Shown here: piece by piece, positions 31,801 to 56,455 of the stretch
Layout: each line of letters starts with the position of its first letter
How positions within the stretch are numbered: the stretch's first letter is position 1
Origin: Nautilus pompilius
Taxonomy: Eukaryota > Mollusca > Cephalopoda > Nautilida > Nautilidae
Assembly: GCA_018389105.1 (NCBI GenBank)
Contig: JACATO010001102.1
Coordinates: 160,353 to 224,352, forward strand
DNA: 64,000 nt
Reading direction: 5' to 3'
Notes under the pieces: generated by a model
Database searches by the model: none
Told to the model about the DNA's origin: nothing
The model's input: the letters and a program-made list of their open reading frames with translations, nothing else
Made by a program: the position numbers and the translations under genes

Positions 31801-34800
31801 AAAAATCCAGTTACACCAAATAAACTACAGCTAACAACTTTCAGGTTAGCAATTATTTAGACAGAAAAATATAATGATCTAAATATACACAGACACAGAT
31901 TCCCATTTGAGATACCACTGACTTTGAAAATTTCAGCAGATTTTTAACTGTTGCAGTCCTTGAAGTTTGATAGTTGGTGGGATGTGAATAGTGGTGGGAT
32001 GGCATTGTAAAGCAGTTCCCATTCTTCACCTCAGTGCATCCCCATTAACAGTGAAAAATTTCTCAAACCCTAACTTCCAACACCATCATCCTATCTACAT
32101 CATGCTTATCTGAACTAGACAGACTTGGTCTTGCACCTTGTGATACAACCTTTTGAAGTTTGGTTTTTGTGGTAGTAATGGAAAATGCAATTTCTGAAGC
32201 GCTTCGCAAAGTAGAATGGCAGTGGGACTTGACAGAAACCAGAGCATGGAACCCTGTTTCACCCAAGCGGTGGCAAAAAACAAAAGCACTTAAAAAATGT
32301 GTGTTGATGAAGTAGTATAGCCATTCTTCACGCTAAACCAGAAGTCATCAGCAGGAAGCAGAGCAAGTGAGGTCTGAAGGCTTAGCCACAGAAAAGTTTG
32401 ATAAGCTGGTCTACTTCTTGCACCATGCTGACACTGAAAAGGGCATTGTACAGAGTCAACCTAAGACAAGTACAAAACTGGAAAGAACAACTAAAACTGA
32501 TCCTCATTGAAATTACCAATCACTTGTGTTGTGGTGGCTGCGTACTGCTTTTTTTCACTCAGAAAGCTGCAGAGATCACAAAAAATTCAACAAATTTTTG
32601 ATTGTTGCGGGCCACTGCAAATGCATGTAGTTTATCTCCAAGTACTTTTATTTTAAAAGCCATCAGGCTTCTGTGTAGAACAGCAGTACATCATGCTATG
32701 ATCACATTTCTTCACATAGCTTAGCAAAGAAATGAGCTTGAATAGTTGATATAGTTCACTAAAGAAGTAATTTGCATTGCTTTTCTCAGTTCTAGATTTA
32801 GATCCTTTGATGCCAGCTCTTCTAGATGAACAGACAGTGCAATTTTTCTGAACTGGTTTCCTCCAGCAGGTTTGTTCTCATCCACATGATCATTGCAAGA
32901 GCTTGAAGCAGATGCTTTTCACAAGAAAACAATCCATGCTATTGCTTGCCTCTCAAAATAAAAACAAATCAATGCATGCAGGCTGTGATAACTTAATCCA
33001 CAGTACAACTAGTACAGCTGAAGAAGCAAGCTTCTGTTGTAAGGACTAATGTGAACCAGCAAATGAAAATCTGCAGATCAGTTTATATACCCACAGCCTG
33101 TCACCATTAAATCATGATAATGGAAGTCTTCAAACAAAGGCCATACAACTCCAACCTCTTGGGTTCTCCATTTGTCCTGCCTGTTTTATACACTGTTCTG
33201 CATATTAGTTCTGCCCCCAGATATTCGGTGTGAGATCAGGGCAGCAGATTCAAAGAACCATGAGTGATGTTGTTGTAATAGTCATCTTCACAGCCAACAA
33301 CAGATGTGTTATGCTGGGAGCTATGTAGGGCACCCTCTTCAGAAGACATCCTGCTGAAGATCATAGGAACTACTTGTGTGAACAGTGTCAAAATGTAGAA
33401 AGATTAAATATATGAAATGACACTGGTCAGCTTCATGATCCCTTCCCCTCTTGTTGCAATCCATAGTTCAAGAACCCCTGCTGTAGTAGTTACTGATACA
33501 GAAAAGTAAATGTAAGGAACAAACTAAGATTTAAAGATTAAAAAAAAAAAAACAAACTAGGGGAGTAATTAAGCCTACCATTTTCATTTCCTAACAAAAA
33601 AAAAAAAAGGCTGCGGTGTCTTCTAATTGCAACAAGTTGGGTAGGTTGGTACCATTGTTAGTAAAAATTTGGACTATCAAAGTGGCCTGAATACCTAGAA
33701 GTGTTGCAAATGGTCAAGGTCAGAAGGTATGGTCAGTGAAATTATAAAATGTTCACCTACCTGGACAATCCAGTTCCAGAAGGGGTGAGTAATGTAGTTA
33801 CTGACAGGGCTTGTATCAACTGCACTGTACTGAAAGAATGAAAATAAAATGTAAGTTACAGATTTCATGTGCAGAAAAGTTTGATATATGAAACAAGTTT
33901 CCTTTCAATAAACAGTTTCCTCTTTTTTTATCCCCTTCATTGTAGAATTCCATTCCAATCGAGTTTAATCTGAAGTCTTTAATAACCACAGTTGTAGTGT
34001 CAAGGTTCTGTCTCACTTGCACCTAAATAATTCATCAGTTCTAAAGGAAAAAATGCCAAACTTTACCCCATTTCTAAAAACACCAGTTCCATATGCACAG
34101 TATAGGAGTAACAAGTGAAGGATGAAGAATGATCCATCTATTTTTTTTTTTTTACTTCTCCATGGAGTTTATAAATTTAATATAAAAATTTTTTAAAGTG
34201 TTTTCATGACAAGCTAGCCACCTCTTTTTTTTTTTGTCAGAATCTAAAACCTGCACCAACCAACCAAAGTAAATACAAAATAAAACCTTAGATAAACACT
34301 GGTTGCTGCTGACTTCTCAAAACATGGATTGATAATTTCATTTATATATAACAAATATAAAAGTACCTATCTCAGAGAAACAGTAAGTACCAAACATCAC
34401 CAAAAAAAAAACGTATAGTTTTCAGAAGACAGACTGGAAAGCAGCTATAGGTTTGTTTCTAAGCAAACCCTCAACAGAGTTTTTACTGAAATCATTTAAA
34501 ACAAATCTGAATGTAAGAAAAATTCCTCATTGGTTCTTAAACGAAGTCCTCTATAAACATATGTAGGTATATATATTAAATTTCGTGACACAATATCTTC
34601 TTTATAAAAAAATAATTGTTTAAAATTTCTTAAGAATCAGAAATAATTTAAAGCAAATTTGGGGGGAAATTCCTTTACACAATGGATTTAAGGCGATGTC
34701 TTCATCTAATCAAGTTACCGTTCTTGTACATCGTTGCCAGACATTTCAAATTCTACACCAGTTCCAAATTGGACTATTTATGTCTTGCAAAACTCAAAGA

Positions 34801-35786: not shown

Positions 35787-36257
35787 CTTGATTCACTCCA
35801 CGGTTGCTTGAACCGCGAACGTCGATAAGTTAATGAGGCAGAATCTGGACAGGAGTCCGACCAATCAAAAACGGCGACTGAACCAAACCCCGGGGGGGGG
35901 GGGGGAATGGTTCTGCCGCACGTGGTTCTAGGCAGTTAATTTTTATGAAACCGCGATAATTAAATTAACTCGTCTCTGGTCTTTATGGCTAATGAAGGAG
36001 GTGAAGTTTAACTTCCCCAACATATTTAATTTTTTTCTAAAATAGAGCATTAAAAAAAAAAAAAGTTATTAAAAATTTAAAAAAAAACAAACAAACAAAC
36101 TATTTTAGCTCTACGCAAAAACTCCCGATTATCTCCCTTACATTGTTTGTTGTCATGACTCCAAACGCAACACAGAGGCAACACAGATACAGGCCTGCAA
36201 CAGAACAGTCCCCCCCCACCAGCCAAGTCGGCACAAGAGTAAGGAATCAGAAGAAAG
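35787..36257. promoter_or_regulatory. Divergent EPT1/FBPase promoter region (471 bp)
   Basis: The two start codons are only 471 bp apart and point away from each other. The half next to EPT1 is CpG-rich. It holds a CCAAT box (35858-35862, in GACCAATCAAAAACGG) about 75 bp from the EPT1 ATG, a long G-run (about 35892-35905) and an E-box CACGTG (35919-35924). The half next to FBPase is AT-rich, with poly-A (about 36052-36063). No clear TATA box could be assigned to either side, so start sites are not known. Confidence 0.65.
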
Positions 36258-37316
36258 ATGGCTTCTGAGAAATACGCGGATATCGAATGCATGACCCTGA
36301 CTCGGTATCTGATGGAAGAACAGAAGAAACACCCGGACGCCACGGGCGACTTGTCGCGGTTGATCAACTCCATCGTCACAGCCGTCAAGGCCGTGGCGTC
36401 CGCCGTCAGGAAGGCAGGCATCCACTCCGTGTTCGGGATCCCCGGGAAGCCCACCGAGTCCCAGGATGAGATCAAGCGGCTGAACGAACTCGCCAACGAG
36501 CTCTTCATCAACATGATCAAGTCCTCCTTCGCCGTGTGCCTGATCGTCTCCGAGGAAAACAAGAAGGCCGTGGAGGTGGAGGAGGAGAAGCGGGGCAAGT
36601 ACATCGTCTACATCGATCCCGTCGACGGTTCCAACAACATCGACTGCCTGGTCTCCGTCGGCTCCATCTTCTGCATCATGAAGAAGTCGAACACGGAGCC
36701 GGCGACGGAGAAGGACTGCCTCCAGTGCGGGCGGAACATTGTCGCCGCCGGCTACGCCCTCTACGGCAGCGCTACCATGATGGTCCTGTCGGTCGGGAGT
36801 GGCGTGAACGGGTTCATGTACGACCCCGCCATCGGCGAGTTCCTGCTGACGGAGAACAACATGAAGATCAAGCACAGGGGAAGCATATACTCCATCAACG
36901 AAGGGTACACGAAGTACTGGGATGACCAGGTCATTCAGTATGTCAAAAATAAGAAACACCCGGAAAGCGGGAAGCCGTACTCCAGCAGATACATTGGCTC
37001 GATGGTGGCCGACGTCCACAGAACGTTGTGCTACGGCGGGATATTTATGTATCCCGCCACGATGGAAGACCCCAACGGAAAGCTGCGATTGCTGTACGAA
37101 GTGGACCCCTTGGCATACATCATCGAGCAGGCCGGCGGGAAGGCTTGTGCCTCCACTGTGGACGTCCTGGATATAGTCCCCCAAGACATCCACCAACAAA
37201 CGCCCATATTTATGGGCTCCAGAGACGACGTGAACGACCTGTTGAAGTTGTACGAAATACAGCCACGCATTAAATTTACCACATTCTCGGGGATTGAACG
37301 CAAAATAAAGGCTTAG
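36258..37316 (+). CDS. FBP1: Fructose-1,6-bisphosphatase, intronless, 352 residues
   Basis: Hydrolyses fructose 1,6-bisphosphate to fructose 6-phosphate in gluconeogenesis (cytosol). The open frame is complete and unspliced, with ATG in the context AAAGATGG. Visible: N-terminal AMP-site helix and TGDL (29-32); metal ligands VSEE (98-101) and DPVDG (D120, D123); KRGKY (111-115); substrate residues RYIGSMVADVHRTL (244-257) and Y265; KLRLLYE (K275, E281), the family signature. Mammalian forms have about 338 residues; the extra length is mostly a C-terminal tail (334-352). Departures from normally invariant residues: KLD to RLN (catalytic loop Asp), DPLDGSSN to DPVDGSNN, and IYRK to IMKK near the AMP-site Arg. 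GC-rich third positions dominate the first 600 bases. A diverged or retrocopied paralogue is possible. Confidence 0.96.
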   Translation: MASEKYADIECMTLTRYLMEEQKKHPDATGDLSRLINSIVTAVKAVASAVRKAGIHSVFGIPGKPTESQDEIKRLNELANELFINMIKSSFAVCLIVSEENKKAVEVEEEKRGKYIVYIDPVDGSNNIDCLVSVGSIFCIMKKSNTEPATEKDCLQCGRNIVAAGYALYGSATMMVLSVGSGVNGFMYDPAIGEFLLTENNMKIKHRGSIYSINEGYTKYWDDQVIQYVKNKKHPESGKPYSSRYIGSMVADVHRTLCYGGIFMYPATMEDPNGKLRLLYEVDPLAYIIEQAGGKACASTVDVLDIVPQDIHQQTPIFMGSRDDVNDLLKLYEIQPRIKFTTFSGIERKIKA

Positions 37317-37427
37317 GATTCGGGGACTAAAGATTTCTTAATAAGTTTATTCCTTCTATTTTTTTTTTTCTTTACGCATTAGAACGAGACTTAAGTTCGT
37401 TTTTATTAAAATTTGAAATGCAGAGAA

Positions 37428-37433
37428 AATAAA
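37428..37433 (+). promoter_or_regulatory. Candidate FBPase polyadenylation signal
   Basis: AATAAA 112 bases after the FBPase stop codon. Another AATAAA at about 37304 overlaps the last codons and is too early. Confidence 0.6.
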
Positions 37434-39139
37434 CCTTGTTTGCTTTTTTAAATACACCTTTCGCAGGACTAATGATACCTGTGACGTCAATTACACTTCT
37501 TGCTTGTTGTGAAAGCTCCCGATCATTCTATTATTACGTATTCCACAAACATTCTTGTCCCTGACGATCTTTGTGCAGACTGTTAACCTTTAAACAATAC
37601 TTTGGTAACCTGCGTCATTTCCCTTAGATCGGAACAAAGAGCAAATAACTCTTTGTTTGAGATTTGTGCAATGTATTAAAAAAATTACTTTGCGATCATA
37701 TACTGATTGGTAATTAAAACTGTACAGTCATTAAAAAAATTGTTAAACGGAGTGTGATATTTTTATTTTTATTACCTCGTGTGTGTGTGCGTGTGTTACA
37801 GAACTTGTTTCTCAAATAAGTTTTAGTCCAAGGGACGTAATTCATGCAAGAGAACGTAATCCTAAGTTTTTTTTTTTTTAATTAATATACAATAAGTTAA
37901 TCGAAACTGTACGCAAAAAAAAAAAAAATACTGCAAAATACAGTAAAATGTAAGGATGTTACTGCAACAACCATAAACATACAGGTATTTAATGTACAAG
38001 GTATTTTACTTTCATAGAGTAACCGCTCAAAATGTCTGCTTTCCAGACTTACACAAGTTACTCGATAATTCCCCCATTTCTGACACTTCGTCCACAAAAT
38101 CACGGCGCCCCCATTCCGCTGACAGGTTGTAGTTGCAAATAACTCCTTTTTCTAAAGTACAATGGATTTGTAGAAGCTCTAAAGGTGACTTTTCAGCTTA
38201 AGTAGAGCCAGTAGATTAACTTAAGGATTACAATGTATTTTCAAACTTCATCTTAAAAAAAAAAAGAATTAGTGGGAAAAAATTTAAAATAATTACACTG
38301 CATTTGAGGACTAATCATTCACTTGCCTTGATGTCAGAAAAAAAAAACAACTTTGCTAACACAGCAAATAACAATCCAAACAGTACAAACAAAATTACCA
38401 AAACGAAATAAGTTATAGTAGTTCTATAGATACACAAACTCTCATGACTGACCAGTTGTTTGTTATAATCTATTGCGGACACTGGAGTATTCATTCATCA
38501 TTCACGAGTTTTATTTACTATAGTAGTATCGTGCGTGTATTTTGACCACCAATCTTCGCCCTTGGTACCAATTCTCAGTAAGTACCCCAAGATTGAAGAG
38601 TCTGGAAAAGAATTCATAAAAAAAAAACCGTTAAAGCTGTGTTTGCCGAAAAGAGAAAGAGCAACACAGAACAACCACTATAAGCAGACAGAGAGGCATC
38701 TTTAAAAATAGTCCCAACAAAATATAAAATATCCTTTCGTTGGTTGTTTTAAATTACTATTTTAAAACTAATTTGCACATACATGGAGGAGTTCTATTGA
38801 TTCTCAAGAATAACGAGCGTGTTTAAAAATAAAGTAGTTTTTCGCTTAGGTTATGAATGAGTGCTTTGGTTTAAACAGAAAATGGCGAAGTTGACCAGTC
38901 TTTTAAAACTATAAACACAAAGGGTCAAGAACGTTTTTTTTAAAAAAGGCGAATTGAATCGACTTATTAATAAGAACTTTTAGAGAATTTACAGCCTAAA
39001 GATATGTTTAAAGTTTGGACAAAATATTTTCAAACCAGCTACTGGCAATAACTTAAATTCCAAATAAATCAGGGTGGGTGGGTGGGAGAGACAGAAGACT
39101 GAAGCAGAACAAATAGGAAAACAACAAGTAAGTAATTCG
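37434..39139. other. Intergenic, downstream of FBPase
   Basis: AT-rich but not CpG-depleted. A perfect TGACGTCA palindrome lies at 37492-37499. Poly-A/T tracts near 37870 and 37916. The minus-strand open frame at 37897-38103 has no recognised domain. Confidence 0.5.
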
Positions 39140-39225
39140 GTTAGCGTGGACAACCGTAGTGAAAAATCGCGGTGCTTCGGTTGTCTGCTAGGAGGCGATG
39201 TAAATCTTGCGCCAAGTTGGTAGAT
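39140..39225 (-). repeat. SINE family 2 tail-like fragment
   Basis: The plus strand reads TTGTCTGCTAGGAGG and then AAATCTTGCGCCAAGTTGG, in the order of the tail of the SINE at 23190-23440. No tRNA head is visible nearby. Confidence 0.45.
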
Positions 39226-42200
39226 TCCGCTTTCACCATCACCCCCAGTAATGGCAATTGCGTTAATATGACTCTTTAATTCTCCATAAATATTTAACTT
39301 ATTTTCAACGTCATTTTATATAACTAAGGTCGACTTAGCATCAGTCAAAACTCCGCCTAGCGCACTTATGCCGAGATTGTGTTTTCTATCTGTACACACA
39401 GGCGACGCGTGTAATTAGAAGATATTTTTATTCCTCTGTCCAGTATAAACGATTCTAGTTTAAAGGGACAACAACACAATGGGTCGGACTCTTTCTTTGT
39501 GGAATAAAATTTAAAAAAACACAAACAACAACAACAACAAAAGAGAAAAGTCAATTCATTAGTAAAGGCGAAATAACAGAAAATTTTTTTTTTAAAGTTA
39601 TTTTATAAAAATAAATTGCAAAATATTTAAAATGCTTTTGTAATTTTTTTTCCTTTTCTCTCTTGATGCGCATTGAGCCCTTCATTTAAAATAAATAGTT
39701 TAATAGATTTTACTTCTAACAAATAAGCGCAGCTTCGGTCTTAAGAGTTTCGAAGCGGTTCTATTTCATCCCTATATGACAACAAACAACCTGTCGCTGA
39801 AAATCTCCTCATAAACAACGATAACTTTGTATCTTTTTTTTTTTTTTAGGTTCAAAGAAATTTTATTTAAATTTCGATTAGTAACAAAAATTTATAATTT
39901 TTTTAAAAATGAAAACTTATGGTCTTAAAGGATTTTAGCCAATATTAGTTTACACTGAGACTGCGAGCCAGCTACCCAACCCTACTCCCACTCTCTCTGG
40001 AGGGAGGTAGGATTGTCCCAATGCTCTGACCAGTAGAAAGGTGTTTTCTCACCCAGGAATTTGGAGTCGAAAGAATTTAGTTAAACAAAAGCATATGTTT
40101 ATCTTATTTACTTGTAGCTCCTTTCCGTACCTGAAAATATAAGCTTTGTCGACGTAGCGCTCACGAGAAGTTACTTATTTTAAAATCGTCCATTAGTGAG
40201 GGTGGCTGGAGGCCGATCTTCCGCACGTGGGGTCGGTCATCAGGGGGGGGTCAGCGAGTTCACTTCACTTCAACAGTCGGCAAAGCGAGCAGCCAAGCGG
40301 AACGGTGGACCACTGCAGTCAGTAACTTACACCAGGCATCATCACCAATCCCAGGAAAACTGTAGGTAGAAGCCATAAAAGAAACAATCAGTTCATCCAC
40401 CGGCCCTTTTCCCCCTTCAGGAAGCCCCAACTTTCCAACTAAATATTCGCATGTACTCGTTGCTCGCTTCAATAACGGGATGGCTAACACACACACACAC
40501 ACAATGCAACTTCAGCATCGCACATCCGCTGGACCACACGATCTCCTGGTCGGTCCTCTTCCTATCGATCGAGGGAGCCCCGCCTTAACCTGCGAGATAA
40601 AAAACACTGCAGTGACAACCCTTACCCCCCCCCACTTCCTTTCCCCACAAATTTACATAATTGTTAGCATCTATAAACTTTACGAAATAAAAAAACGCAT
40701 CAGCTTTAATAAGGTTCTACAATTAGAATACAAAGAGAAAAAAATTGCTGACAAACCGAGCTTCAAATGAAAAACAGCCGACTAGTGGGGGGGGGGTTCG
40801 TTCTCCCCCCCCCCGACTGGCAGACACCGCTTCACCATCCGTTCGATACGAGCCAGCATCATTCCTCCGAAGCCTCATTAATTTCTACAAAAAAGACTAG
40901 AAAAGGGTTGGTTCCCCACCCGACCAAAATAAGCGACTAACTCAAAATTTACATTATTTATTATGTAGTATTATTTACATACATACATTATATATATATA
41001 TATTGACTTTAGAAAAGAGAAATAACCATTTGCAAGTCATATAATTTTTTAAAAAATCATTTACCAAGGGAGACAATAACAGAAAAGGTAATCACTTCAG
41101 ATAAACTTGAATAATGTCCCTTAGATTATTAATTTCCTGGCGATAACTTGGAATTTCACATCTATCACTGTGTTGCGAAAGCATTCCGTGGGCGCTACCT
41201 GAGAAAAGAAAATCTAACTTTCTTCTCGTGTTCCCGGCCAATCTCGCTGCACCACCCCCCCCCAAACCACGGCGGCAAATACTTTCCCAGTGAAGCTTGC
41301 GATTCTTCATTTTACAGAAATAAAATATTTGGAATTAACGAACGTAAACACGAGAACTAAGAGTCTTTTTATATTCGAGGACGAAGGGGCAAAGACTGGA
41401 CGTGGAAGGTACGGGGGCAGAGGTGATTCAAATGCTATAGAAATGGTGATAGAGCTTGCATAGCTTTCAGTATTGCTTAATAGAATTAATTATGAAATCA
41501 TTCATTCGAAATTGAAAATCATCCCTATCTCTGAAATACCAACGTAATGGATTCTGTAACTAATATTTTATAGATGCCAGTGTTACCGTGCAACATGCTG
41601 ACGACAAACCAAAGCGATCATCCAACTCGGCGAAAGGGAATCGGCAGGGCAAGGAAGCGGATGGTCCTGTGAACGTAACCCACGGGCCCAGGAACCGGTT
41701 GGGCAGGCAGTTCACGAAACGCCATTACACCGAATTACGCTGAATATTTGCCCTAACAACGAACGAGTTGAAACTTGTACTTAATAAAACAAAGCAAAAA
41801 AGGTTTCTTCTGTCAATGGCCATGTTAGACACCTTGTTTCTATTATGACTTACACAGCGATAAAGATTAAAGAGTGGAAGATGTTTAATTTTAGTATTTT
41901 TCTGCCAAATGTCGGCCATGTTGAATTCATTGTACATGATTACAAATACATCGGGTTTTCAGTGCGCAACGGTTAGCCAACTAACCCCAAATAATAATTT
42001 TAAAATAATGCTGCTGAAAAATCGCTTGCCTTACCTCCCCAACACATTATTATAGATTTTGAGAAAACTGTATTAATTTTTTCAGCGTTCCAACTTTGTC
42101 CTCTCTTCCCACTATTGCTGCGCGATTCTGCTCTCATCATGGCCCCTCTTATCTCTTTGTCTCCCCTCCCCCTAGCGGCAGGTGTTTCTCAATAGAGCCT

Positions 42201-44269
42201 TTTGGAATTAGCTCGCCCATCTTCACGGTCCAATTAAGGCGAGACCCGTTCTCTCTGTTCCGACAGGCGAACACAGTAAGTAGATTTCAACCCTGAACTC
42301 TTACTTCAACTCTCAAACCGACACCGAAATTCCCCTATACCTTAATCCGAAATCCGGTTATGCCTGTAAGTCCGCTGAAAGATAACAAACGCTTTCATAT
42401 TCAGAAGTATTATGAATTTACTTTCTATTTCACATATCAGGATGGGGTAGCGGCGGCTGGGAATACTTCTGCTAGGACTAGACATTGAGTGTTCGCAGAT
42501 AGAGTTCAGAAGTCAATACATTTGCGAGACAGCGCTTATTGAGAGACCGGGCTCCGCTCCTGTCAGATGGATTACAGGAGAGGGTCGGAAGATGATTGGA
42601 ATACATTGGTTGATCCCATTTCGGCGCTGACGCTAAAAGAAGACAAAAGAATCCTGTGGATTGAGTGAAGGCTTGAAATGCGAGGCTATGCCAGTAACGT
42701 TTTCGCCATGGCCTTCTTTGATGAAGCAGCTTTCTCTCCCCCCCCCCCCGCTGTTGTCACATTATCCCGGTCGTACACTGCGACCGTGATAGATGTCCGT
42801 TTGGTGGAGAAAGCCCTTATCCGGTGGCAGGTCATGTACGGCTGTCTGCTGTAAAACGGGAAATGCCCGAGTAAGTAAAGCCAGCAAAATACGTGAAACA
42901 TAATATATTCGGGTCATCACGAGATGAACAGCTTCTTCTAAACAACAAAAGGAACCCCGTCAAAGTATTAGAGGGTAAAGAGAGCCTCCATTCACGCGGA
43001 CTCTTTCCCCAGAAGTCTCTTCGCCCCCCGATCTCGCCGTTTGGTGAAAGAAACGAAGCCGAACAACTCTGCATAGTTGAGGGACCTATTCAGCCGCCTC
43101 AGAAGAAACGAGAAAGTTTCCATCTTCGAGACGGATGACCTACTGGCTGCGTTAGTTAAATGGCTTTCCTTCCTACTCATAAACATTGGTGGGCAGCTAA
43201 TTCTTTCAGGCCTTTTAGCGGCCCAGTCTGACAAGAGAGTCAGTCAGTCACCTGGCCGGGCAAAGAAGTAAAACTCAATTTACTTTCAATTTCTCAGACT
43301 TTACGCCCACAGGTGAATTTTCTGAAGTGTTTTTGCTTGAGTATTGGTTTAAAGACTTTGCTGTAAGGCATAGTGCAAACAATCCCAATTAATTTCTCTT
43401 TAATATTTATTTTTCATAGCCATATAATATTTTAAAATAATAATATTTACACCGCACAAATTCATATACGTTTAAAAAATGTTAATTTTGAATTTTTGTC
43501 ATAACGTTTTGGTTAGAAATATCCACCTTTCTGCTTGATCAGTTTTTAATATTATTATTATTATTATCGGCGAGTCCATAATTATGGATGCCAGTGTATA
43601 CAATGTAATGATTGCTGTTTACGCTGTGTTGATAAAAGCTGTTAACTCTCACGGCAGGAACGGTAGTTTCCGTAGTTTATCTACCGTTTATTCCCTTCCT
43701 GCTGCTTCTATTCGGAATTCAGCACACAAAGAATTAAGCAAAAAGCGGTTGTTTCCAAGCCTCCTGCGCTGAATGTAGGATACGCTGCTCACACCTGTTC
43801 ATGTTCCGAGAACCTGTACGTTGATCCAAACTCTCCAATAATAATAATAATAATCTGATGGCAGTAGGAGCTAAGTTAAATTGTTGGCTGTGAACAAGAT
43901 TGTGTGCAAAATGGCAAGGATGGCAAAATGACTTTGACAGAAGAGGCTGTCAGTACGTGAGTGACCATCACTGAGCCTGTACGTGTATTGGTAGGTATCG
44001 ATCAAATCGGACCATGAAGCTGTCGTTGAGAGACGTCGCGCCAACAGTTGATCAAGAGACTGCGGAAGGACCTGGCGACCACACACCCCACGTCCCTCTA
44101 CAATAGTTAGAAATCTGTTCAGTCGGATTTATGTTCGGAGCTCGTGCGACCGCGCCATAAGACTGATGTCGCGGACCTGAAGTGCAACGCTGACAACAAG
44201 TGCGCAGTGTAGAGGGCGTTGCTATCCGTGCTGTGTCGTACATCGATGTCCATAAGATAGACCCACCTT
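39226..44269. other. Intergenic, no gene recognised
   Basis: Mixed AT-rich and balanced sequence, CpG retained. Contains (CA)n at about 40485-40501, poly-C/poly-G runs (about 40788-40813, 42738-42750), (TA)n at about 40991-41002, and AAT/ATT microsatellites at about 43549-43567 and 43838-43853. Open frames of 60-81 codons occur on both strands with no domain I recognise. Confidence 0.5.
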
Positions 44270-44345
44270 GGTGAGGAAGAGTAGTACCGCGGGTGTCCGC
44301 TAGGAAGTTTTGTTAATCTTGCGTCACAAGGGACTTGGCACTTCG
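44270..44345 (-). repeat. SINE family 2 tail-like fragment beside CRE array A
   Basis: The plus strand reads GAGGAAGAGTAGTACCGCGG, GTGTCCGCTAGGAAG and AATCTTGCGTCACAAGGGAC. This is the closest match to the SINE at 23190-23440 tail (GAGGAAGTGTAGTAC...TGTCCACTAGGATG...AATCCTGCATCA). It ends about 30 bases before the CT tract that opens array A. Confidence 0.55.
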
Positions 44346-44375
44346 GACGACTTGGGCATGATGGAAAGCCTTAGT

Positions 44376-44378
<3 letters not shown>

Positions 44379-44413
<35 letters not shown>

Positions 44414-45064
44414 ACGTCATCTCTCTCTGTAATGACGTCATCTCTCTCTCCTGTCTCTTTCTCTGTACTGACGTCACATATCTCTCTGTAATGACGTCAT
44501 CTCTCTCCTGTCTCTTTCTCTGTACTGACGTCACATCTCTCTCTGTAATGACGTCATCTCTCCTGTCTCTTTCTCTGTACTGACGTCACATCTCTCTGTA
44601 ATGACGTCATCTCTCCTGTCTCTTTCTCTGTACTGACGTCACATCTCACTCTGTAATGACGTCATCTCTCTCCTGTCTCTTTCTCTGTACTGACGTCACA
44701 TCTCTCTCTGTAATGACGTCATCTCTCTCTCCTGTCTCTTTCTCTGTACTGACGTCACATCTCTCTGTAATGACGTCATCTCTCTCTCCTGTCTCTTTCT
44801 CTGTACTGACGTCACATCTCTCTGTAATGACATCATCTCTCTCTGTAATGACGTCATCTCTCTCTGTAATGACGTCATCTCTCTCCTGTCTCTTTCTCTG
44901 TACTGACGTCACATCTCTCTGTAATGACGTCATCTCTCTCTTCTGTCTCTTTCTCTGTACTGACGTCACATCTCTCTCTGTAATGACGTCATCTCTCTCT
45001 CCTGTCTCTTTCTCTGTACTGACGTCACATCTCTCTCTGTAATGACGTCATCTCTCTCTCTCTT
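44379..45064. repeat. Minisatellite A with about 23 perfect TGACGTCA palindromes
   Basis: Starts with (CT)n, then a composite unit of about 55-60 bp repeated about 11 times. One half is CTCTGTAATGACGTCATCTC, the other CTCTGTACTGACGTCACATC, separated by CTCTCCTGTCTCTTT. By my count 23 copies of TGACGTCA are perfect and one is TGACATCA. Spacings between palindromes in the first part alternate between 21-23 and 32-36 bp. Open frames here are repeat translations, not genes. Confidence 0.93.
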
Positions 45065-46350
45065 TGATGCGAGAGGAATCCAGAGAGCCCGGAGCCAACC
45101 CACGCGGAAAGCTAGTGAAGAAAGAGAGAAACCACGCTAGAGAGCGCTCCAGTGCCCGGCGGTCCATCACGGTAGCACCAAGTCGCCTTGCTGTCAAGTC
45201 GCACAATTTACTAACGTTATGACTTGGAACAAATTTAAACCTATTTTCAAAAAGGTTTCAGTTCTTGACTTTAGAAATGAATACCGAATTTCCCGAATAA
45301 GTTGTGTGATAAATGTACAATAGCAAGTTGCACATCTATGATTATGGTCACACATTCCAGTCATTCACGTCATAGACGACGGAAGTTGCGCATATTTCAC
45401 CTGCTGTTTGCATGACGGACTTCCAGAAAAATGCCTAAAATATATCTATTCCTTTTCTTTTGCCCAGCGACACTGAAACAAACTTCTTCATTTTTCCTCT
45501 TCGTTTGCTTCTGTCATTGACAACTGCTGAGCTAAGCAACCGCCGGTCCCGTTTATGACGTCATACCGACGATGGGCTCGTGTCACGTTGATGATGGAAA
45601 TGCGATATACGCGATGAGCTAAATTCAAAACGTACCGTGGGGTTAATAACTGGGACAGTATTGAAAACTCCCAGTAAGGTGGCAGAATTATCAGATATCA
45701 TTAAAAGGGTCGCAGGTCAGACATTTCGAATTTCCATTCTCATAACGCAGACAATGCTTGCGACGGGAAGATGAGGAAGAAATAAATATAAAATGGAACA
45801 AAACCAGAGGTTCACCGACAGTGCGTTAATAATAAGAGAAAAGCGAGAAAAGGGACATTCGCTGTAGATAGTAGGATAAGGAGCGGGGGCAGGTTAGATC
45901 GTGCACCGGGGATAGCGGACGCCTCTATTCTTGGTTATACCACGTTCAGAGTTTGCAGTATCAGCCGTTTGCGTTGGTCACGAGAAGGCAGACTTTCTCC
46001 TCTTCCTACAAACCGTCTAAAGAGAACAAATAAAGCACTTAATTTTTTTTTACCCCCTCCCCTCCTGACAAAGAGCATATCAGAAAATAGGGAGTTTTTC
46101 ATACTAGCAGCGTGCTACTGCTTCACCCAAAGGCCGACACAGCGGCGGAAAGCAATCTACGCAGATTCACGAAATATACAGTCAGGTGAGAGACGGCCGG
46201 GGAGATCGGTTGCAGGTCTGCTGGATTCTGCTTATCTTCACCGTGCGGTGTAACACGGCTGCAATAAACAAAACGGATAAACCAATTTGATCTCGCCTTT
46301 GCTTTAATCCGTTGTCCAATTTCCACAATATACGCCAAGGGCATAAACGC
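45065..46350. other. Spacer between the two TGACGTCA arrays
   Basis: Non-repetitive, CpG-rich. One further isolated perfect TGACGTCA lies at 45556-45563 in TTTATGACGTCATACC. No gene recognised. Confidence 0.55.
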
Positions 46351-46351
46351 T

Positions 46352-46382
<31 letters not shown>

Positions 46383-47000
46383 ACTACTGACGTCATCTCT
46401 CTCTCTCTGTATACTGACGTCCTTTCTTTCTCTGTGTACTGACGTCATCCCTCTCTCTGTGTAATGACATCATCTCTCTCTGTGTACTGACGTCATCCCT
46501 CTCTCTGTGTAATGACATCATCTCTCTCTGTGTAATGACGTCATCCCTTTCTCTCTCTGTACTACTGACGTCAACTCTCTCTGTGTGTGTACTGACGTCA
46601 TTTCTCTCTCTGTACTACTGACGTCATCTCTCTCTGTACTACTGACGTCATCTCTCTCTCTGTGTACTGACGTCATCTCTCTCTGTGTACTGACGTCATC
46701 TCTCTCTGTACTACAGACGTCATCTCTCTCTCTGTGTACTGACGTCATCCCTTTCTCTCTCTGTACTACTGACGTCATTTCTCTCTCTGTGTACTGACGT
46801 CATCTCTCTCTGTACTACAGACGTCATCTCTATCTCTGTGTACTGACGTCATCTCTCTCTCTGTACTGACGTCCTTTCTCTCTCTGTATACTGACGTCAT
46901 CTCTCTCTCTCTCTGTACTACTGACGTCAACTCTCTGTGTGTGTACTGACGTCATTTCTCTCTCTGTATACTGACGTCATCTCTCTCTCTCTCTCTCTCA
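46351..47000. repeat. Minisatellite B with about 18 perfect TGACGTCA palindromes
   Basis: A simpler unit of about 23-28 bp, CTCTCTCTGTGTACTGACGTCAT, with variants ACTACTGACGTCA, TGACATCA, AGACGTCA and TGACGTCC. Begins and ends in (CT)n. By my count about 18 palindromes are perfect. It shares the core but not the composite unit of array A. Confidence 0.92.
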
Positions 47001-48136
47001 ATAAATCGAGGTTACTGACCGAATCCAGATCAGATCTGGAATTTCCTTTGGAAATCGGTAATTTGTAATCGCCCACGCAACGCCAAGCAAAGCAGCCAGC
47101 AGAATTCTCTCTCTCTCTTCTCGTCTAAACTTACCGCTCTCTCATTAGGCAAAAGTGTTATCGCTGCTTCAGAACGGAGCGTCACCACAGGTTTTTATCT
47201 TCTTCGTACGTCGCTGTAAAACAGCCACGTTTCTGTCGAGAGAGGTGGAGGCGGACTGTGGGCAACACGGAATCCGTCGATAAAATGTGACTTAGTCGGT
47301 TTTAATATCCCGCGATCGTCGCGCCGCCCGTGGGGGGGGGGGCAGGAGAAGGTCTGACGTCGAAACCACGTGACGACGAAGATGGTCCCACAATTATTCT
47401 AAATGGCAGAGAAAAAAGCCATTTTTTTTTGCTTACACGAGATAGGTCAGTTTTTTTTTTTTTTTTTTGTCTTTTACCAAATAACCTCGTAACGATTAAT
47501 AGGCAGCAAACCGAGATTTTGCATAACCGAAAGCGATCTTAACCGCTGCTAACTCTTTGTCAGACAGCCAGCAAGATATCAGAAACACGGAGCCCCCGGG
47601 CTTCCGTTCTTCCCACGCCACTGATTCCATAATTGACGTCGCTCGTCCGGGTGGCGGATAACGAAGCGAGACGACCCGGAGACAGGAGTCTGGAACGCTA
47701 CACTTCCGCGCGGCTCCATCTAGAAATAGCTCCAGCAACAAACAGAGTCTGTCCGTGCCTGGGAGTCATCCCTCGATTTATCTGAAAAGTCATCGAATTC
47801 GCTCTGCAGTTGAAATAGGCGGGTGCAAGCAAACGATTTTCATTAAGGGGAAGAAATATATATATATAAAAAAAGCGACATTACCAGATATTTACGTCAA
47901 TGTATCAGGTGTGGTTAGCAGCACCTGGCCGGCCGGCATCTCTGAATCCGTCGGAGTAGTCGCCTCATGTTCCGAAATAGCGTCAGTACCAAAAACATGA
48001 ACTTCGAGGGTATGGAATATTTATGAAACAGCCAAGATTAACTGGGGCCGGGAATTGTGCGGGTGGGTCAGAATATTCCTTGTCATGTTATCATGAAATA
48101 TAGGGAGGTAAAACAGCTTTTACGAACACTTCCTGT
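47001..48136. other. Intergenic, no gene recognised
   Basis: CpG-rich. Contains poly-G (about 47332-47342) and poly-T (about 47451-47468). Short open frames are not supported. Confidence 0.5.
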
Positions 48137-48166
48137 TGATGATGATGATGATAATAATAATAATAA

Positions 48167-48247
<81 letters not shown>
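48137..48247. repeat. (GAT)n/(ATA)n trinucleotide microsatellite
   Basis: About 110 bp of GAT then ATA repeats with one imperfection near 48165. Confidence 0.95.
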
Positions 48248-48248
<1 letters not shown>

Positions 48249-49352
48249 TCCTTCAGGCCCCACCCCAGGGGACCCTACCGCCGCCTCCTCTGGTTATTGT
48301 AAGAAAGATATCGGCTAGAAGAATAAAAGCCAAGCGGAATTAAAGGGTTGTCGTGTATTGTCCGGTAGGAAAGTTGTTAGTGAGCGGTACTATAGAGAGG
48401 AAAGTGAAAGTGAATGGTGTGTCGAACCGGGGTCCACCTGTCGTTTCCCAAAGGCAACAACAAAAATAATAATAATAATAACAAAAAAACCCCCAGTGTG
48501 ACAAATTCACGCTGGATTACAACAACTATAAGAGTCAAACTGACTCCGTTGCCTTCCTTCGGGGTTTAAATGCAGTAGTGCCAAACAATTTTGAAACATA
48601 CGGCTCAATTTGCTCAAACAAACCTGGACGAGTTACGTCCCTTTATGATTTAAAATACAATGTGAATTTAGGTTTTTTTTTATTTAAAAAAAGCGTGACG
48701 TTTGGAGGGAACTGTAGCGGCACCTGTACGGCCGCTGCCATCAAGGCTTGTAGACCTCAGGTTGCGGTCGGATTCCAATCACGGTAGCCAAAACTTTTGC
48801 TAATTGACGTCCAGTACAAGACCTCCTGCAGTCACATCCGCCATCGCATTTACCAGAGATCTGGTTAGCGCTGAGGGTTTCGCAGAGACGGTTCTCCGTG
48901 ATTGCCGCCCGAAGCCTCACCGCGGCGACTGTGCTTTAAAATCGGGAATCCTTGGCAGAAGAACAGGGGAAAAAAAAGAAAAAGGGGGGGGCTATTGTTT
49001 ACTTTTACTGTTTTGCTTTGTGTAGGCGGTGGTAACTCTAGGGGTTTTAGGGAAAAACCGACGCATTGTTGCAGATGGATATCCGCTTAAATTGGGCAAG
49101 AGCACTCTTCACCCGAAATAACAGCTTCGATAATTGCGTATAGAAGATTTTAGATGCAACAACAGGAAAAAAAAAGTTTGTTTTTTTTTCTTTTTTTTTA
49201 AAAAAAAAAGGAAATATTTCTCTGATATTTTGTATTTCTTAAAATTTACAAACCTCATCAAATGATACATCCAATTTACGAGCTGTTTTTTTATTATTAT
49301 TATTTAAATGTCCTATATAAGTTTCATATTTCAAGACATACTGAACAAATAG
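48248..49352. other. Intergenic, no gene recognised
   Basis: CpG-retaining sequence with ATA and poly-A/T tracts (about 48462-48485, 49170-49210). A B-box-like GGTCGGATTCCAATC near 48767 has no matching A box. Confidence 0.45.
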
Positions 49353-49745
49353 CTTATTCAAGGGAATATTCTATTATATGGGTGTCTCGTTCATGAGTCT
49401 CACCTTTCATGAACATTCTAAAAGATAGCTTATCCAAGCTAATATTTTATCTGACTGTCTCATAAATAAGTCGCACCTCTCATGAAAACTAACAAAGACT
49501 TATCCAAGCTAATATTTTATCTGACTGTCTCATAAATAAGTCGCACCTCTCATGAAAACTAACAAAGACTTATCCAAGCTAATATTTTATCTGACTGTCT
49601 CATAAATAAGTCGCACCTCTCATGAAAATTAACAAAGACTTATCCAAGCTAATATTTTATCTGACTGTCTCATAAATAAGTCGCACCTCTCATGAAAACT
49701 AACAAAGACTTATCCAAGCTAATATTTTATCTGAATGTATTATAA
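49353..49745. repeat. 70-bp tandem repeat, about five copies
   Basis: The unit contains AATATTTTATCTGACTGTCT, CATAAATAAGTCGCACCTCT, CATGAAAACTAACAAAGACT and TATCCAAGCT. Copies start 70 bp apart at 49441, 49511, 49581, 49651 and 49721. A more diverged copy lies just before (about 49353-49430). The middle copies are nearly identical, which suggests recent homogenisation. Confidence 0.93.
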
Positions 49746-51377
49746 AACAACAAAATCTGTTTATTTCATTTCATATATAAATTGAATCAAACATAGAGTC
49801 TTTTAGGAAAAATTCCAAAATAAAAAAAAAATTCAATTTATGCACATTTTATCTTTCTTTTTCTTTAAAAAAAAAAAAACATTTCTCGTAACATTTTAAC
49901 ATTTTTTCTGGCATAAATGCCATGCGGAGCTCCACTGGTTGATGACTTTTCTGTCTGCAATACCGCAGGTGGATGCCACGTGGTATCCTTTTCTTCAAGA
50001 ATCGGAACTTCTTGCCTGGTAAGAGACAAATGCTGTGATGATTTTACGAGTCGACTCTTTAAAACTCAGTGCAGTTTTAATTACATTTTCGTCATTTCAA
50101 CTCTTCTCGAAAGAAAAAAATAAAGTATACTGTACAATACGCGGCAAAAGCTCTAGAGGTCTAAAAAAGACAGCATTTACCAAACCGACAATGCCATTTA
50201 ATAAACGTTAGAAAATGGTTCTTCGAGCATCAGTTCAGCTTACGCCGGCTTTGGTTCCGTGTAGTTTTTTTTTAAAGGAACTTTCCAACTGACGAATCAT
50301 CAGTAATACGGTGTTGGATTTTCCAAAAACATATCCGACACTGGAGCGATAGAAAGAATACCCCCAAGGTTTAATTTCCAGGCGGGTATTCGCTTTACTT
50401 TAATGGGAAACCGTTTTATACCAATCGCTCACGGCCTCCGACCTCGCAGGTACGCGTTTTTGAAAGTTAGGGAGCTTATAGTTCTAGCTAACTGTTCTTA
50501 ACTGCGGACTGTTGTCATTATCCAACTGTAAAATTGTCATCTGGTCTTTCTCTCGTCTACCGCGATGACGAAACGATTTTCTTTCATAAATAAATAAATA
50601 AATAAATAAATAGTTTTCAGAAAATATTTTAAAAAACCGAAGAAGTATAATTTCCGAAATGATTTAAATTTAGATGGAATATTTCACTTATTATGGAATC
50701 CATGTCGGCTGAAGTAAAGGCGTAAAGGCGACGAGCGCAGTAATTTCCATTCCTTTGAACTATGAAATGGTGTCGAGTTTCCACCAGACGGCGCCGTTCT
50801 AGCCAGCTAATTCGTGATGCTATTAAGGTAAACCTCTAAAATTTCGAAACAATAGAAACTTTCAGTTCTACGATTTCGCGTCGTCGACCCGTAGAAAATA
50901 TTCATGGGTTGAAAGGAAATTAGAATGGATGCAAACCGGAAATTGTCACACAAAGTACAGCAGCAATTTCCGGTCTTATTTAGACTAATACACAGGCACG
51001 GGGTATTGAGGCATGCGCTTGTACACGGAATTAGTCAGAGGACCGCTTGCACCAAAACTTTCTTCCGTATTAACGTTCCCATCTGAACATCTCAGTTTTG
51101 GAATCAGATCTGTGGCTGCAACGGATTTGCGCAGAGTCGGCTATAACGCGACGGATGACTCAGACGTAATCTACGTATTTTAGGATTCTAAAAGTACATC
51201 CAAATTCAAATAAATCAAAAAGAGTAGGTAAAACAAATGCTGTTAAAAGATAAACTGATATATATATAAAAAACACAACAACAAATGAAAGTAGAAGGGA
51301 TGAAAGGGATATACGGAGAGTATTTAAAAAATGGTTGAGAAGAATAAACCGTGGCAAAATATCCGAAAGGCTTCACC
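49746..51377. other. Intergenic, no gene recognised
   Basis: CpG-rich after 50 kb (14 CpG in 50701-50880). (AAAT)n tract at about 50588-50611. The 68-codon open frame at 49917-50123 has no recognised domain. Confidence 0.5.
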
Positions 51378-51600
51378 GGCCTGGCGGTGTGGCTCAGTGG
51401 TGAGTGTGTTGGCTTCGGGACCTAAGGGTCCTGGGTTCGATTCCCGCTGCTGGTACATCGTTGTGACCCTCGAACGAGGTACTTTACTGGCATCGCTCCA
51501 GTTGCTGCTGGGGTGTGGCCTGTGTAGGCACTCAGACAGAGGAACCGAGGTCAAGGGGGGGGACGCTCTATAGCCATGACAGAGGCAAGTCCCCTATGAG
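51378..51600 (+). repeat. tRNA-derived SINE (family 3)
   Basis: Strong A box TGGCTCAGTGG (51390-51400) and perfect B box GGTTCGATTCC (51434-51444) at tRNA spacing. A body including ACGAGGTACTTTACTGGCATC and GCTCCAGTTGCTG follows. The B box matches consensus, so this copy is younger than the other SINEs. A real tRNA gene is unlikely, because the acceptor stem does not close after the B box. Confidence 0.82.
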
Positions 51601-51870
51601 AAGTCAGAAGAATGAACCACCGCTGAAGTCGGACGCACTGGGCCAGAGCCCGCACAACGACGGTGCAGCGCATCCCACTCTTATGAAACGAGTAGATCGA
51701 AGAAGGAGAAAGACCTCACCTTGTTTAACTTCCCTATTTAACGCCTTTCTAAATTTATTATCGTATACAGTAGATGGCCGTTAGAAATTTCAAACAAAAG
51801 TTTGTTTACGATCTTCTGTCACACTAGACATTTTATCGGAATATATCTGTTTTCACGCTCGATGAATTAG

Positions 51871-52389
51871 TTAAGTGACGAGTCGACAGATGACTCGGCG
51901 ATCGCTATTCAGGTTTTGCCTAGCTGAAAGATTTGAAGGTAACGGTAGGACAAGAAGTTTTACCTGTCTTATCTGGGGGGCTATCGCTTTCCTGCTCTCT
52001 TTCTGTACATCACTTTGGCGGGCATCTGGGAAGAAATGTTTCTTTTTCTGTGGGATTTCGCCGAGCACTTTGTCTGTTGATGCCACAATTTCTTTCCGGT
52101 CAACTGCCTGGCATTTTCCGTGAACTCCGGAGCTTTCCTTCCAATGAGATTGCAAACAATCCACCTTTTTGTTTGCCAGTCTTCGTTTCGTTACCCGTTT
52201 CACATTTTTGTTTTGTTTTTTTTTTTCTTCTGAGAAATGTCCGAAGTTCCGCTTCGTCACTTCCTCTATCACAGAAACCATTCGATTGTAGAGTTGAGCC
52301 GCGACACACTGAACAATCTCAGCCGCTAGCGACACATTATTCTTTTTTTCTCTGAAGGAAGAACTAGAAACGGTGCATGGACATTGCAT
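51871..52389 (-). CDS. Hypothetical 172-codon open frame, unsupported
   Basis: The longest open frame in the gene-poor right half. The sequence is Lys/Arg/Val/Gln-rich (VSLAAEIVQCVAAQLYNRM near the N-terminus, KRVTKRRLANKK in the middle). No domain was recognised, no splice or promoter signals were identified, and the opposite strand is open for 140 codons over the same DNA. It may be chance or a lineage-specific gene. Confidence 0.2.
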   Translation of the reverse strand: MQCPCTVSSSSFREKKNNVSLAAEIVQCVAAQLYNRMVSVIEEVTKRNFGHFSEEKKKQNKNVKRVTKRRLANKKVDCLQSHWKESSGVHGKCQAVDRKEIVASTDKVLGEIPQKKKHFFPDARQSDVQKESRKAIAPQIRQVKLLVLPLPSNLSARQNLNSDRRVICRLVT

Positions 52390-53690
52390 ACAAGTCAGGT
52401 AGGAAACAGTAATTGCACTCGCAGCGTGGGCGGTACACCGACACGTTAGAAATTGCCCCTGGAATCAAGATATCGAAATATTCCACGAGAAAAAAAAAGC
52501 ACATCCTTTTGGTGCAGCAGCCCTTACGCGTGCAGTGACTAATGAGATGTACCCGATTAATTAGGGATGCATAAAATTCTGCGAAGAGCACTCTTCTTCT
52601 CTGGACCTGTTTCAAACAGATCTATATTTACTGAATATAACGTAAAACCGGTTCGCTTTTACTCGCCAAGTGTTTTTTGCTCCAAGGACCGAGTTGGACC
52701 GGTCTCTCATCATTATCTCCCAACCCTAACCTCCTCATCATCTGAGCCCTCGACTCTTCATATCAGAGACGCACTGCCGAGCATCGCTCATCTCACCAAC
52801 GCCACCGGAGATTCGCTGACCGAAAAGAACTCACGGTCGTAATCTTGTTCTGGTAATAGTCTCTTTAAATTAAAATCAGATAAACAACCACCAGTCCACA
52901 CGTTTAAATGGAATATGATCAAATTATTTAAAAAAAAAAAAAAAACACTTTTGGAGCGAGTAGTTCAGACGTGGAATCCGTCTTACGTAAAGGACGTTGA
53001 CAGATTAGAGAAAAATGCAGAGGACCTACAACCTCAGCTGTGGAGCGACTTCACCTGACAAGAGTTTAACCTACGGTCATTTTTCCGTAGAGAAGTCGAA
53101 TTAAGTTTTCCTAAATGTTCCAGTAAAGAACACTCTCAGTTAGATCAACTTTTCGACGGTTCCGGGGGTGGGGTACATTTTAGGAAACCAGCTCGGGGGG
53201 AGGCGGCAAGATGATTTAAAGCAACGTTCAAAATTGGACGAGAAAATGGGTTTTTGCAGCAACCGTAGCCGCCTCGGCTCGGAACTGCGCACCAAATCAG
53301 ATCGATACCTTCAAGAATAGGCCACACGCTTATTTCTCGGAAAGTTGTTTTGCTGGCCTGGTGGTCGGCTCGCCAAGATCGAGCGTGCGATCCTGGATCG
53401 ATCGATCGATATTGATATCGATCGATTCGGTTCGGTGCGCCTACCTGGTAGCTTGGGGGGGGTTATCTTTTTTTTTTTTTTCTTTCTTTCTTACGACTCT
53501 TCTCCGCCAGCCGGCTGTGTGGCTTCAGAAAAGTGACACCAGGGGGAGGGAGTGTTTCCAAAGTGGTAAGACATCGAGAAGATTTACTTCAGTTCGGCCA
53601 GCGGCGGCTGTTAAAGGTTCGCTGTTGAGCCCCAAGTTTTAAAGCCAGTACAGACGAACCAACTAAATAGTTGAAAGCACGGAGTCGGCT
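52390..53690. other. Intergenic, no gene recognised
   Basis: CpG-rich. A SINE-head-like stretch at 53350-53397 (GGCCTGGTGGTCGGCTCGCC, AAGATCGAGCGTGCGATCC) may be a relic of SINE family 2. It is followed by a palindrome-rich (ATCG)n segment (53397-53426). Confidence 0.4.
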
Positions 53691-53698
53691 AAACTCTG

Positions 53699-53804
53699 CA
53701 CCTGCTCAGGTGTAAGTAAAATACCGCCATTTTAGCCCGGAGGCCGTCTGCACCTACTCAGGTCTAAGTAAAATACCGCCATTTTAGCCCGGAGGCCGTC
53801 TGCA
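53699..53804. repeat. 52-bp tandem duplication
   Basis: Two copies of CACCTGCTCAGGTGTAAGTAAAATACC... (second with CACCTACTCAGGTCTAAG), each ending CCCGGAGGCCGTCTG. The offset is 52 bp. Confidence 0.85.
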
Positions 53805-54907
53805 CCCATTCGTTCTGAGATAACTGCCTTCCAAAGCTTGGCCCTCTGTATAATACGCGGGTGGGAGCCTAGAAGCGCTAGTATTTGTTTTGAACTGATG
53901 CATAAGTTAGTCCGGCACGCAGAGGGTTAATATTAACGAGGAAGCCGCCTGGCATTACAGAGTAAAGGTCTGAAGGTGTGGTGGCGTGTAAGTAAACTAC
54001 ACCTGACATGTTTCAGTTAAGTCACACTGAAGATCAAGCTGCTGCTTTATTTTAGTTTTCAATATTGAAGAATGTAACAGTTTGGATGCAGCTTTCCAAC
54101 CCAGAATATAACATGCAATTATTTACTAAATTAATAACTTCCAAGATGGCTCTGATCTTGAACAAGTATTTCTGTAAAGGATGGGATTCCGAAATCAATA
54201 TGCTTTTGTGAGGCGATATGAATTCTAAAACTCTAAATTCTTTTGTCTTACTGACCCCTCCACCTTATCGGGCTAAAGGCCGCGACATTGCGAAGATATT
54301 GCTCACCTGGCCCCTTTTGATAAACGAATTTATTTTAAATCGGTTACTTTCGTCGGTTTCATGAGAGCAAATCGACGATCACCTGTCGCCTTCAATGGGA
54401 AATGTCTCCGTTCTCCCGACACATTGAAACCTTCTACTTCCAACGTCAGGTTGCTTCCGGTGGCGACACCACATCTGTCTAGGCTCTCAGGCTTACCGAG
54501 AAGGTTTCGCACACAAAAAGGGAGTTTGGAATACTTCGATTACTGCCATTCCAAACGATTAAAATTTTTCAGCAATAGAGTTAACCGGTCAGATTCTTTG
54601 AGGAAATCCCAAGAGCAGTCTGAAGAGCTAATGTGAATGTACAACCGTGGGAGTTTCGCGACTATTTAAATACAGGACGAGTTCTCCTATATATTGAGCG
54701 TTTATATTTCGAAAACAACAACCCAAAATGAGCTGGAATAGAAGCATAGTTACAAGAAATGTTGAAAAATATGCTTTTTTTGAAAACCCATTCTGGTTCT
54801 TGGTTAAAATTTCGGACTGGGAAGTTTCATTTATCCACCAAAAAAAAAAAAAAAAAATAGAAAGAAAAGAAATTAGCAATTTTACCGGAGAACTTTCGGG
54901 GCTTTCG
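53805..54907. other. Intergenic, no gene recognised
   Basis: Balanced composition. The 91-codon plus-strand and 107-codon minus-strand open frames (54361-54636, 54628-54951) have no recognised domain. Confidence 0.45.
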
Positions 54908-55010
54908 AAGACCTGATGGTTAGTATTCCGGCTTGAAGCCGTGGGGTACATTCCCCTCCTGCATCGGATGGCTATAAATCGTTTCCAGCATCGTAAAGGT
55001 TAAGTAAAAA
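54908..55010 (+). repeat. Possible degenerate tRNA-derived SINE
   Basis: Reads CCTGATGGTTAGTATTCCGG (A-box-like), GGGGTACATTCCCC (B-box-like, one or two changes from GGTTCATTCCC) and a tail CATCGTAAAGGTTAAGTAAA. Weak, but the order and spacing are tRNA-like. Confidence 0.4.
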
Positions 55011-55189
55011 GCAGAATTACGATTTCAGAGAGCGCAAAATGTTCCTTTTGGTGAGGAAATTAGCCGAAAGACTATTTCTTAATTAATCACAGCAACCGAC
55101 TTAGTTTTCTACGCCTCGAGTGTCGAGACCCCGGCTCCAGCTGACTCCATCACTGCTTCAGGAAAACTCGTGAACAATTTCTGAGCATC

Positions 55190-55319
<130 letters not shown>

Positions 55320-56126: not shown

Positions 56127-56455
56127 GGTTTAGGGCTGTAAGTGTGATCCTTAAAACTAACCCTAAATCTAAAGGTTTAAGGCTGTATGTGTGATCCTTA
56201 AAACTAAACCTAAATCTAAAGGTTTAAGGCTGTATGTGTGATCCTTAAAACTAACCCTAAATCTAAAGGTTTAAGGCTGTATGTGTGATCCTTAAAACTA
56301 ACCCTAAATCTGACGGTTTAAGGCTGTATGTGTGATCCTTAAAACTAACTCTAAATCTGACGGTTTAAGGCTGTATGTGTGATCCTTAAAACTAACCCTA
56401 AATCTAAAGGTTTAAGGCTGTATGTGTGATCCTTAAAACTAACCCTAAAATTGAA
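56127..56455. repeat. 47-bp tandem repeat, seven copies
   Basis: The unit begins GGTTTAAGGCTGTATGTGTG and contains ATCCTTAAAACTAACCCTAA. Copies start at 56127, 56174, 56221, 56268, 56315, 56362 and 56409, exactly 47 bp apart. Each unit carries a telomere-like CTAACCCTAA. Confidence 0.93.

Follow-up and report, generated by a model that had tools for sequence, protein, structure and literature searches.

In the 64-kb stretch of Nautilus pompilius DNA analysed here (the window), two arrays of the full CRE palindrome TGACGTCA, which we call A and B, belong to a dispersed minisatellite family that, by our estimate, occupies thousands of places in the genome. We consider it probable, at about two chances in three, that this family grew within CT tracts by unequal exchange and gene conversion, and that the CRE was carried as a passenger. 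This reading draws on the number of octamers in the genome, on the excess of close octamer pairs and of flank-only sites over reversed controls, on units that are specific to each locus and outer flanks that are unrelated between loci, on the absence of octamer-specific constraint over 55 arrays, on a retention of the central CG that tracks the CpG content of the flanks, and on octamer spacing that shows no helical phase.

Two octamer arrays in the window

The window contains 44 exact copies of TGACGTCA, compared to a mean of 0.62 and a maximum of 3 in shuffled sequence, and three of these copies are solitary (37482, 45556 and 61176). An earlier, sequence-only reading had described an octamer-rich minisatellite at 44379-45064, and its 24 slots (23 perfect TGACGTCA and one variant, TGACATCA), its two alternating flanks (GTAATGACGTCATC and GTACTGACGTCACA) and its start-to-start spacings of 21-23 and 32-36 bp were all recovered; the coordinates hold for array A, but a sister array, B (46352-47000), lies outside them (Table 1). 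Array A has CT-rich linkers, short ones (13-15 bp) alternating with long ones (24-28 bp), and a higher-order unit of ~57 bp. In array B the unit is ~25 bp, most linker ends read GTGTAC, GTACTAC, GTATAC or GTGTAA, and the imperfect slots are TGACATCA, AGACGTCA and TGACGTCC, twice each. CT tracts bound both arrays on both sides, and the units of ~57 and 25 bp fall within the minisatellite range (units of ~10-100 bp, arrays of up to a few kb).

Table 1. Coordinates of arrays A and B, their bounding CT tracts and their setting in the window.
Feature	Position	Strand	Remark
CpG-undepleted half holding arrays A and B	34001..64000	.	CpG o/e 0.75-1.20 per 2 kb
(TC)n microsatellite, left edge of array A	44379..44407	+	
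Array A	44408..45050	+	24 octamer slots (23 TGACGTCA, one TGACATCA at 44828)
CT tract, right end of array A	45051..45064	+	
Lone TGACGTCA between arrays A and B	45556..45563	.	outside CT tract
(TC)13 microsatellite, left edge of array B	46352..46377	+	
Array B	46378..46979	+	24 octamer slots, 18 perfect
(TC)10 tract, right end of array B	46980..46999	+	

No Rfam family matched the window at the gathering threshold, and hence no RNA gene was found in it. Searches of phages and plasmids returned no relatives of array A, nor did a scan of a genome-contig collection with one pattern, and a pattern scan of viral contigs gave five stretches with one match each, which by rough reckoning is about the chance level.

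The window also holds other tandem repeats, at 49429-49746 (70 bp unit), 53695-53806 (52 bp unit), 56118-56449 (47 bp) and 58001-58122 (60 bp), together with transposon remnants, namely a hAT dimerisation domain (12533-12973), a reverse transcriptase (27979-28545) and a DDE_3-like transposase that scores below the curated cut-off (26144-26998). A fructose-1,6-bisphosphatase is encoded at 36261-37313 (+) in a single open frame without introns; either a retrocopy or a gene poor in introns would fit. Among its best 120 matches, four vertebrate proteins of greater length score highest, and next comes the protein of Octopus bimaculoides (66%), the leading match of ordinary length, which other molluscs and Limulus follow closely; no relatives of the bisphosphatase were found in viral contigs. 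A protein search with the phosphotransferase exon was taxonomically uninformative. A COX1-like stretch is best matched by a sequence whose label reads Octopus vulgaris mitochondrion (90%, with 96% of the query covered); insects, at 83-84%, are the next matches that carry a name, and the genome contains 117 COX1-family matches on many contigs, most of them with in-frame TGA, as nuclear mitochondrial insertions would have.

A dispersed family with a common core

Genome counts were taken in the window's own assembly (727.6 Mb, 2558 contigs). TGACGTCA occurs 93,914 times in it, which is one full CRE per ~7.7 kb, compared to a chance level of ~7,000 (a rough scaling of the shuffle mean of the window to the genome) and to 19,528 copies of the reversed form ACTGCAGT, which lacks the CpG; this count, which the sequence-only reading had proposed as a check, makes arrays A and B part of a larger family. 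Octamer pairs 5-35 bases apart number 33,652, versus 88 for the reversed control, with at least one third of all genomic TGACGTCA standing in close tandem pairs, and GTAATGACGTCATC occurs 3,085 times, versus 8 for its reversed control. The first 100 close pairs listed resolve into ~15 places within 287 kb of one contig (C1), and extrapolation from that single contig gives an estimate of ~5,000 array loci genome-wide. No octamer was present in 20 stretches of 2 kb whose positions on array-bearing contigs had been fixed beforehand.

A search on the flanks alone, CTCTGTA-N9-TCTCTC with the 8-mer left unspecified, returned 19,702 sites versus 291 for the reversed control. Among the first 100 sites listed, 42 hold a perfect octamer, 41 differ from it by one change, 12 by two and 5 by more; 95 thus lie within two changes of TGACGTCA, and imperfect cores make up over half. 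These 100 sites belong to 32 loci, 21 of which contain at least one perfect octamer. The family can therefore be defined by its core together with its CT flank.

To compare arrays between loci, we fetched 30 stretches covering 100 listed places of GTAATGACGTCATC (of the 3,085), 16 of the 32 flank-picked loci (those listed first) and 4 hand-picked ones. Of the 30 GTAATGACGTCATC-picked stretches, 28 contain an array with four or more octamer-like sites. Common to the loci is the core GTA[A/C]TGACGTCAT, flanked by CT tracts, and around it the units are locus-specific, varying between loci in length, order and linker; over 55 arrays, called units measure 19-120 bp and arrays 0.07-1.1 kb. Locus consensuses from 47 of 52 sequences (five with fewer than four slots were left out) agree in 44-47 of 47 cases at each octamer position and in 45-47 of 47 at the GTA before it. 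A census of repeats in L014-L083 and the window (period of at least 8 bp, at least 2.5 copies) yielded 56 with octamer-like sites, a count inflated by the choice of most census loci for family membership, 9 that are CT-rich without such sites, mainly plain microsatellite or low-complexity tracts, and 12 that are neither. Among the papers listed by literature searches, which covered few subscription journals, none describes a cephalopod CRE minisatellite, and TGACGTCA in combination with cephalopod and genome gave no match in the literature searched.

Octamer change and CpG setting

The sequence-only reading had held the octamer to be better preserved than its surroundings. Within the window this stands as a trend: array A has 1 substitution in 192 octamer bases versus 9 in 447 linker bases (p = 0.30), array B has 6 in 192 versus 23 in 382 (p = 0.16), and octamer changes are fewer than linker changes when both arrays are pooled (p = 0.08; multiply changed slots and linkers of once-seen length left out). 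The genome sample, however, does not bear it out. Over 55 arrays, the substitution rate was 0.058 in the octamer and 0.050 at all other positions (p = 0.24), which, on the sequence side, is the equality of rates that the same reading had named as counting against its claim. These arrays are 57 chosen repeats minus two poly-T artefacts, repeats with a unit above 130 bp, fewer than 3 copies, less than 60% pyrimidine or a consensus without an octamer-like site having been left out; these exclusions would, if anything, bias the comparison in favour of the octamer. The four bases upstream of the octamer had a higher rate that did not reach significance (0.074, p = 0.11), and CT tracts had a lower one (0.034, p = 0.0017), perhaps underestimated because slippage can absorb changes.

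Within the octamer, changes are commonest at the central CG, on which both half-sites depend: it takes 36 of 79 distinct single changes (each variant counted once per locus), where equal mutability of all positions would give 19.75 (p = 7e-5); since CpG is mutable anyway, this excess indicates a lack of visible protection and is not to be taken as a rate. Visible purifying selection on the octamer finds no support in the rates over 55 arrays or in the concentration of changes at the CG; weak selection is possible.

The two halves of the window differ in CpG content. At 1-34000, CpG o/e is 0.12-0.78 per 2 kb, and around 34-35 kb (in 33000-36000) it switches sharply from depleted values (mostly 0.12-0.5, with TpG raised) to ~1.0, the pattern expected of mosaic invertebrate methylation. 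Array loci elsewhere have similarly undepleted flanks: around the 30 octamer-picked stretches the median CpG o/e was 0.97 and 2 of 30 values lay below 0.6, compared to a median of 0.35 for random stretches, of which 14 of 20 lay below 0.6. The first 16 flank-picked loci all lie on contig C1; 3 of them fell below 0.6 (p = 0.003 versus random), and 4 of 20 did so when the 4 hand-picked loci were included. With CpG o/e read as a proxy of germline methylation history, the arrays sit mainly in CpG-rich, presumably unmethylated DNA.

Octamers keep their CG more often where the flanks are richer in CpG (Spearman 0.35, p = 0.021, 43 loci), whereas retention at the other octamer positions shows no relation to flank CpG (0.09, p = 0.59); this analysis left out 209 of 969 slots, each with more than 4 changes, and the correlation used loci of at least 4 slots. 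Two array loci, L029 and L043, have CpG-poor flanks (o/e 0.22) and perfect octamers in 7/7 and 9/27 slots, respectively, and the intact state of L029 despite such flanks indicates that flank CpG predicts octamer decay incompletely.

The CRE as a probable passenger, and alternatives

Of the four possibilities raised by the sequence-only reading, a factor sink, an enhancer-like array, a cruciform-prone locus or a satellite simply carrying the site, the last is best supported by the similar rates in octamer and flanks and by the CG as the most changed part. An array would have started as a single core or a few cores in or beside (CT)n tracts, and unequal exchange, gene conversion and CT slippage would then have enlarged and locally homogenised it into locus-specific higher-order units. 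The locus-specific structure is directly visible; unequal exchange and conversion are the process of growth that we infer. The CRE palindrome would have belonged to the ancestral core and been carried passively, its copies decaying within arrays like ordinary DNA, fastest at the CpG, and intact octamers would persist mainly in a CpG-rich, presumably germline-unmethylated compartment. As a guess, the seed may have reached unrelated loci by ectopic conversion from one CT tract to another. The arrays resemble minisatellites that arise out of CT microsatellites (cryptic or compound simple repeats) in having units of tens of bases, lengths of ~1 kb or less, locus-specific higher-order variants and CT slippage between cores; they differ in that one transcription-factor palindrome is common to an estimated several thousand loci with no visible carrier. 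From the motif, ATF/CREB proteins would be expected to bind the arrays in vivo, and upkeep of the arrays for such binding is unsupported here.

Some observations count against a purely passive CRE. Nearly all CT-rich minisatellites in the census (56 versus 9) have the core, which may actively promote expansion, and no vehicle of dispersal was found. In 158 kb of DNA close to arrays, 19 octamers stand alone, away from any array or CT tract, where a first-order expectation gives 1.78; this roughly tenfold excess is not expected of a minisatellite alone, and the isolated copies in the array-free flanks of L014-L043 have mostly varied, non-CT surroundings. Control palindromes in the same 158 kb are also in excess (ACTGCAGT 7 versus 1.81, TCACGTGA 14 versus 1.78), and part of the effect may therefore lie in the expectation. 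Together, the core-rich census, the isolated octamers and the absent carrier leave room for an active role of the core. The pooled trend in arrays A and B and the perfect slots of L029 also weigh against the passenger. The enrichment of TCACGTGA near arrays was itself set aside, 6 of 15 listed occurrences coming from one satellite in L014 (23-460), whose 61-bp unit repeatedly holds this palindrome.

One such active role, suggested by analogy with fission yeast, would be that of a recombination hotspot, in which CRE-bound ATF/CREB opens germ-cell chromatin and draws meiotic breaks, and repair by unequal exchange enlarges and spreads the arrays; we regard this as unlikely. In fission yeast, ATGACGT(CAT) with Atf1-Pcr1 bound to it accomplishes the first of these steps. 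The M26 hotspot requires Atf1-Pcr1, and the 10-mer ATGACGTCAT, tested as an M26 hotspot, has very high activity in S. pombe (PMC3534124, PMC2677671, PMC9775316). Both motifs are present here: ATGACGT occurs, on both strands together, 26 times in array A and 19 times in array B, and the 10-mer occurs 13 times in array A and once in array B, and it encloses 151 of the 474 array octamers in 52 fetched sequences. One core at many unrelated loci, with few CT-rich minisatellites lacking it, also fits core-dependent expansion. However, CG-poor arrays are still multi-copy, with CG in 3/20 slots at L077 and in 2/16 at L080, and changes that would abolish binding are not depleted in the octamer. M26 sites also showed no significant association with budding-yeast breaks in PMC3534124, where this is said not to prove inactivity. 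The likeness to the ade6-M26 / CRE hotspot of Schizosaccharomyces pombe, through ATGACGT(CAT), is a resemblance of sequence, and unlike the single site in yeast, the motif here lies in tandem arrays of an animal. More doubtful still, and again argued by analogy, is the wider proposal that thousands of self-amplifying minisatellites use the ATF/CREB palindrome as a recombination-initiating signal, as a selfish genome-wide repeat possibly reshaping CREB availability.

We think it quite improbable that CREB/ATF-bound arrays act as cAMP-responsive enhancers or as a factor sink and are kept for that function. CRE promoters and enhancers are bound by CREB/ATF, and the arrays share their full palindrome TGACGTCA, with the exact site in many copies, tens of thousands of full palindromic sites across the genome, a location mainly in CpG-undepleted, presumably accessible DNA, and isolated CREs enriched nearby. 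Set against this, the site is not more conserved than its flanks over the genome sample (the window arrays alone show a trend the other way, pooled p = 0.08), binding-destroying changes are not depleted, octamer CG retention drops with flank CpG, and the spacing of octamers shows no helical phasing (resultant 0.02-0.06 for periods 10-10.8, n = 417). The commonest spacings are instead 2 bp apart, as CT slippage would give. Unlike CRE promoters and enhancers, moreover, the arrays have up to dozens of copies per locus and no site constraint. The proposed enhancer-like array thus finds no support in constraint or helical phasing, and with 93,914 sites a sink may arise as a side effect.

A seed unit spread inside a transposable element, with arrays growing after insertion, is very improbable: dispersal to many loci needs a vehicle, and one inverted TGACGTCA pair in L016 (2604 and 4449, ~1.85 kb apart) resembles the ends of an inverted-repeat DNA element, but different loci do not share sequence beyond the array. 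The 108 outer flanks of 54 arrays contain a single pair with similarity (25 bp), and matches between window 42000-50000, arrays aside, and the 30 loci are confined to a triplet repeat. For the arrays under comparison, these unrelated flanks largely refute a recent carrier; an ancient carrier that has since eroded completely is possible. PcH-Sat of a limpet, a transposon-derived satellite, is likewise a tandem repeat family in a mollusc, and the Nautilus arrays differ from it in being short and dispersed, with no shared flank or element found. A cruciform-prone locus would seem doubtful, a palindrome of 8-10 bp being short for such a structure.

For Nautilus pompilius, counts of CREB motifs in the genome are swollen by a repeat and call for caution. 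The CpG-rich and CpG-poor settings of the arrays offer a built-in test of CRE decay through methylation, and the family supplies a large replicated set for asking whether a binding site can drive the birth of minisatellites. At one full CRE per ~7.7 kb, by counts, the genome would present an unusual natural background for CREB/ATF signalling.
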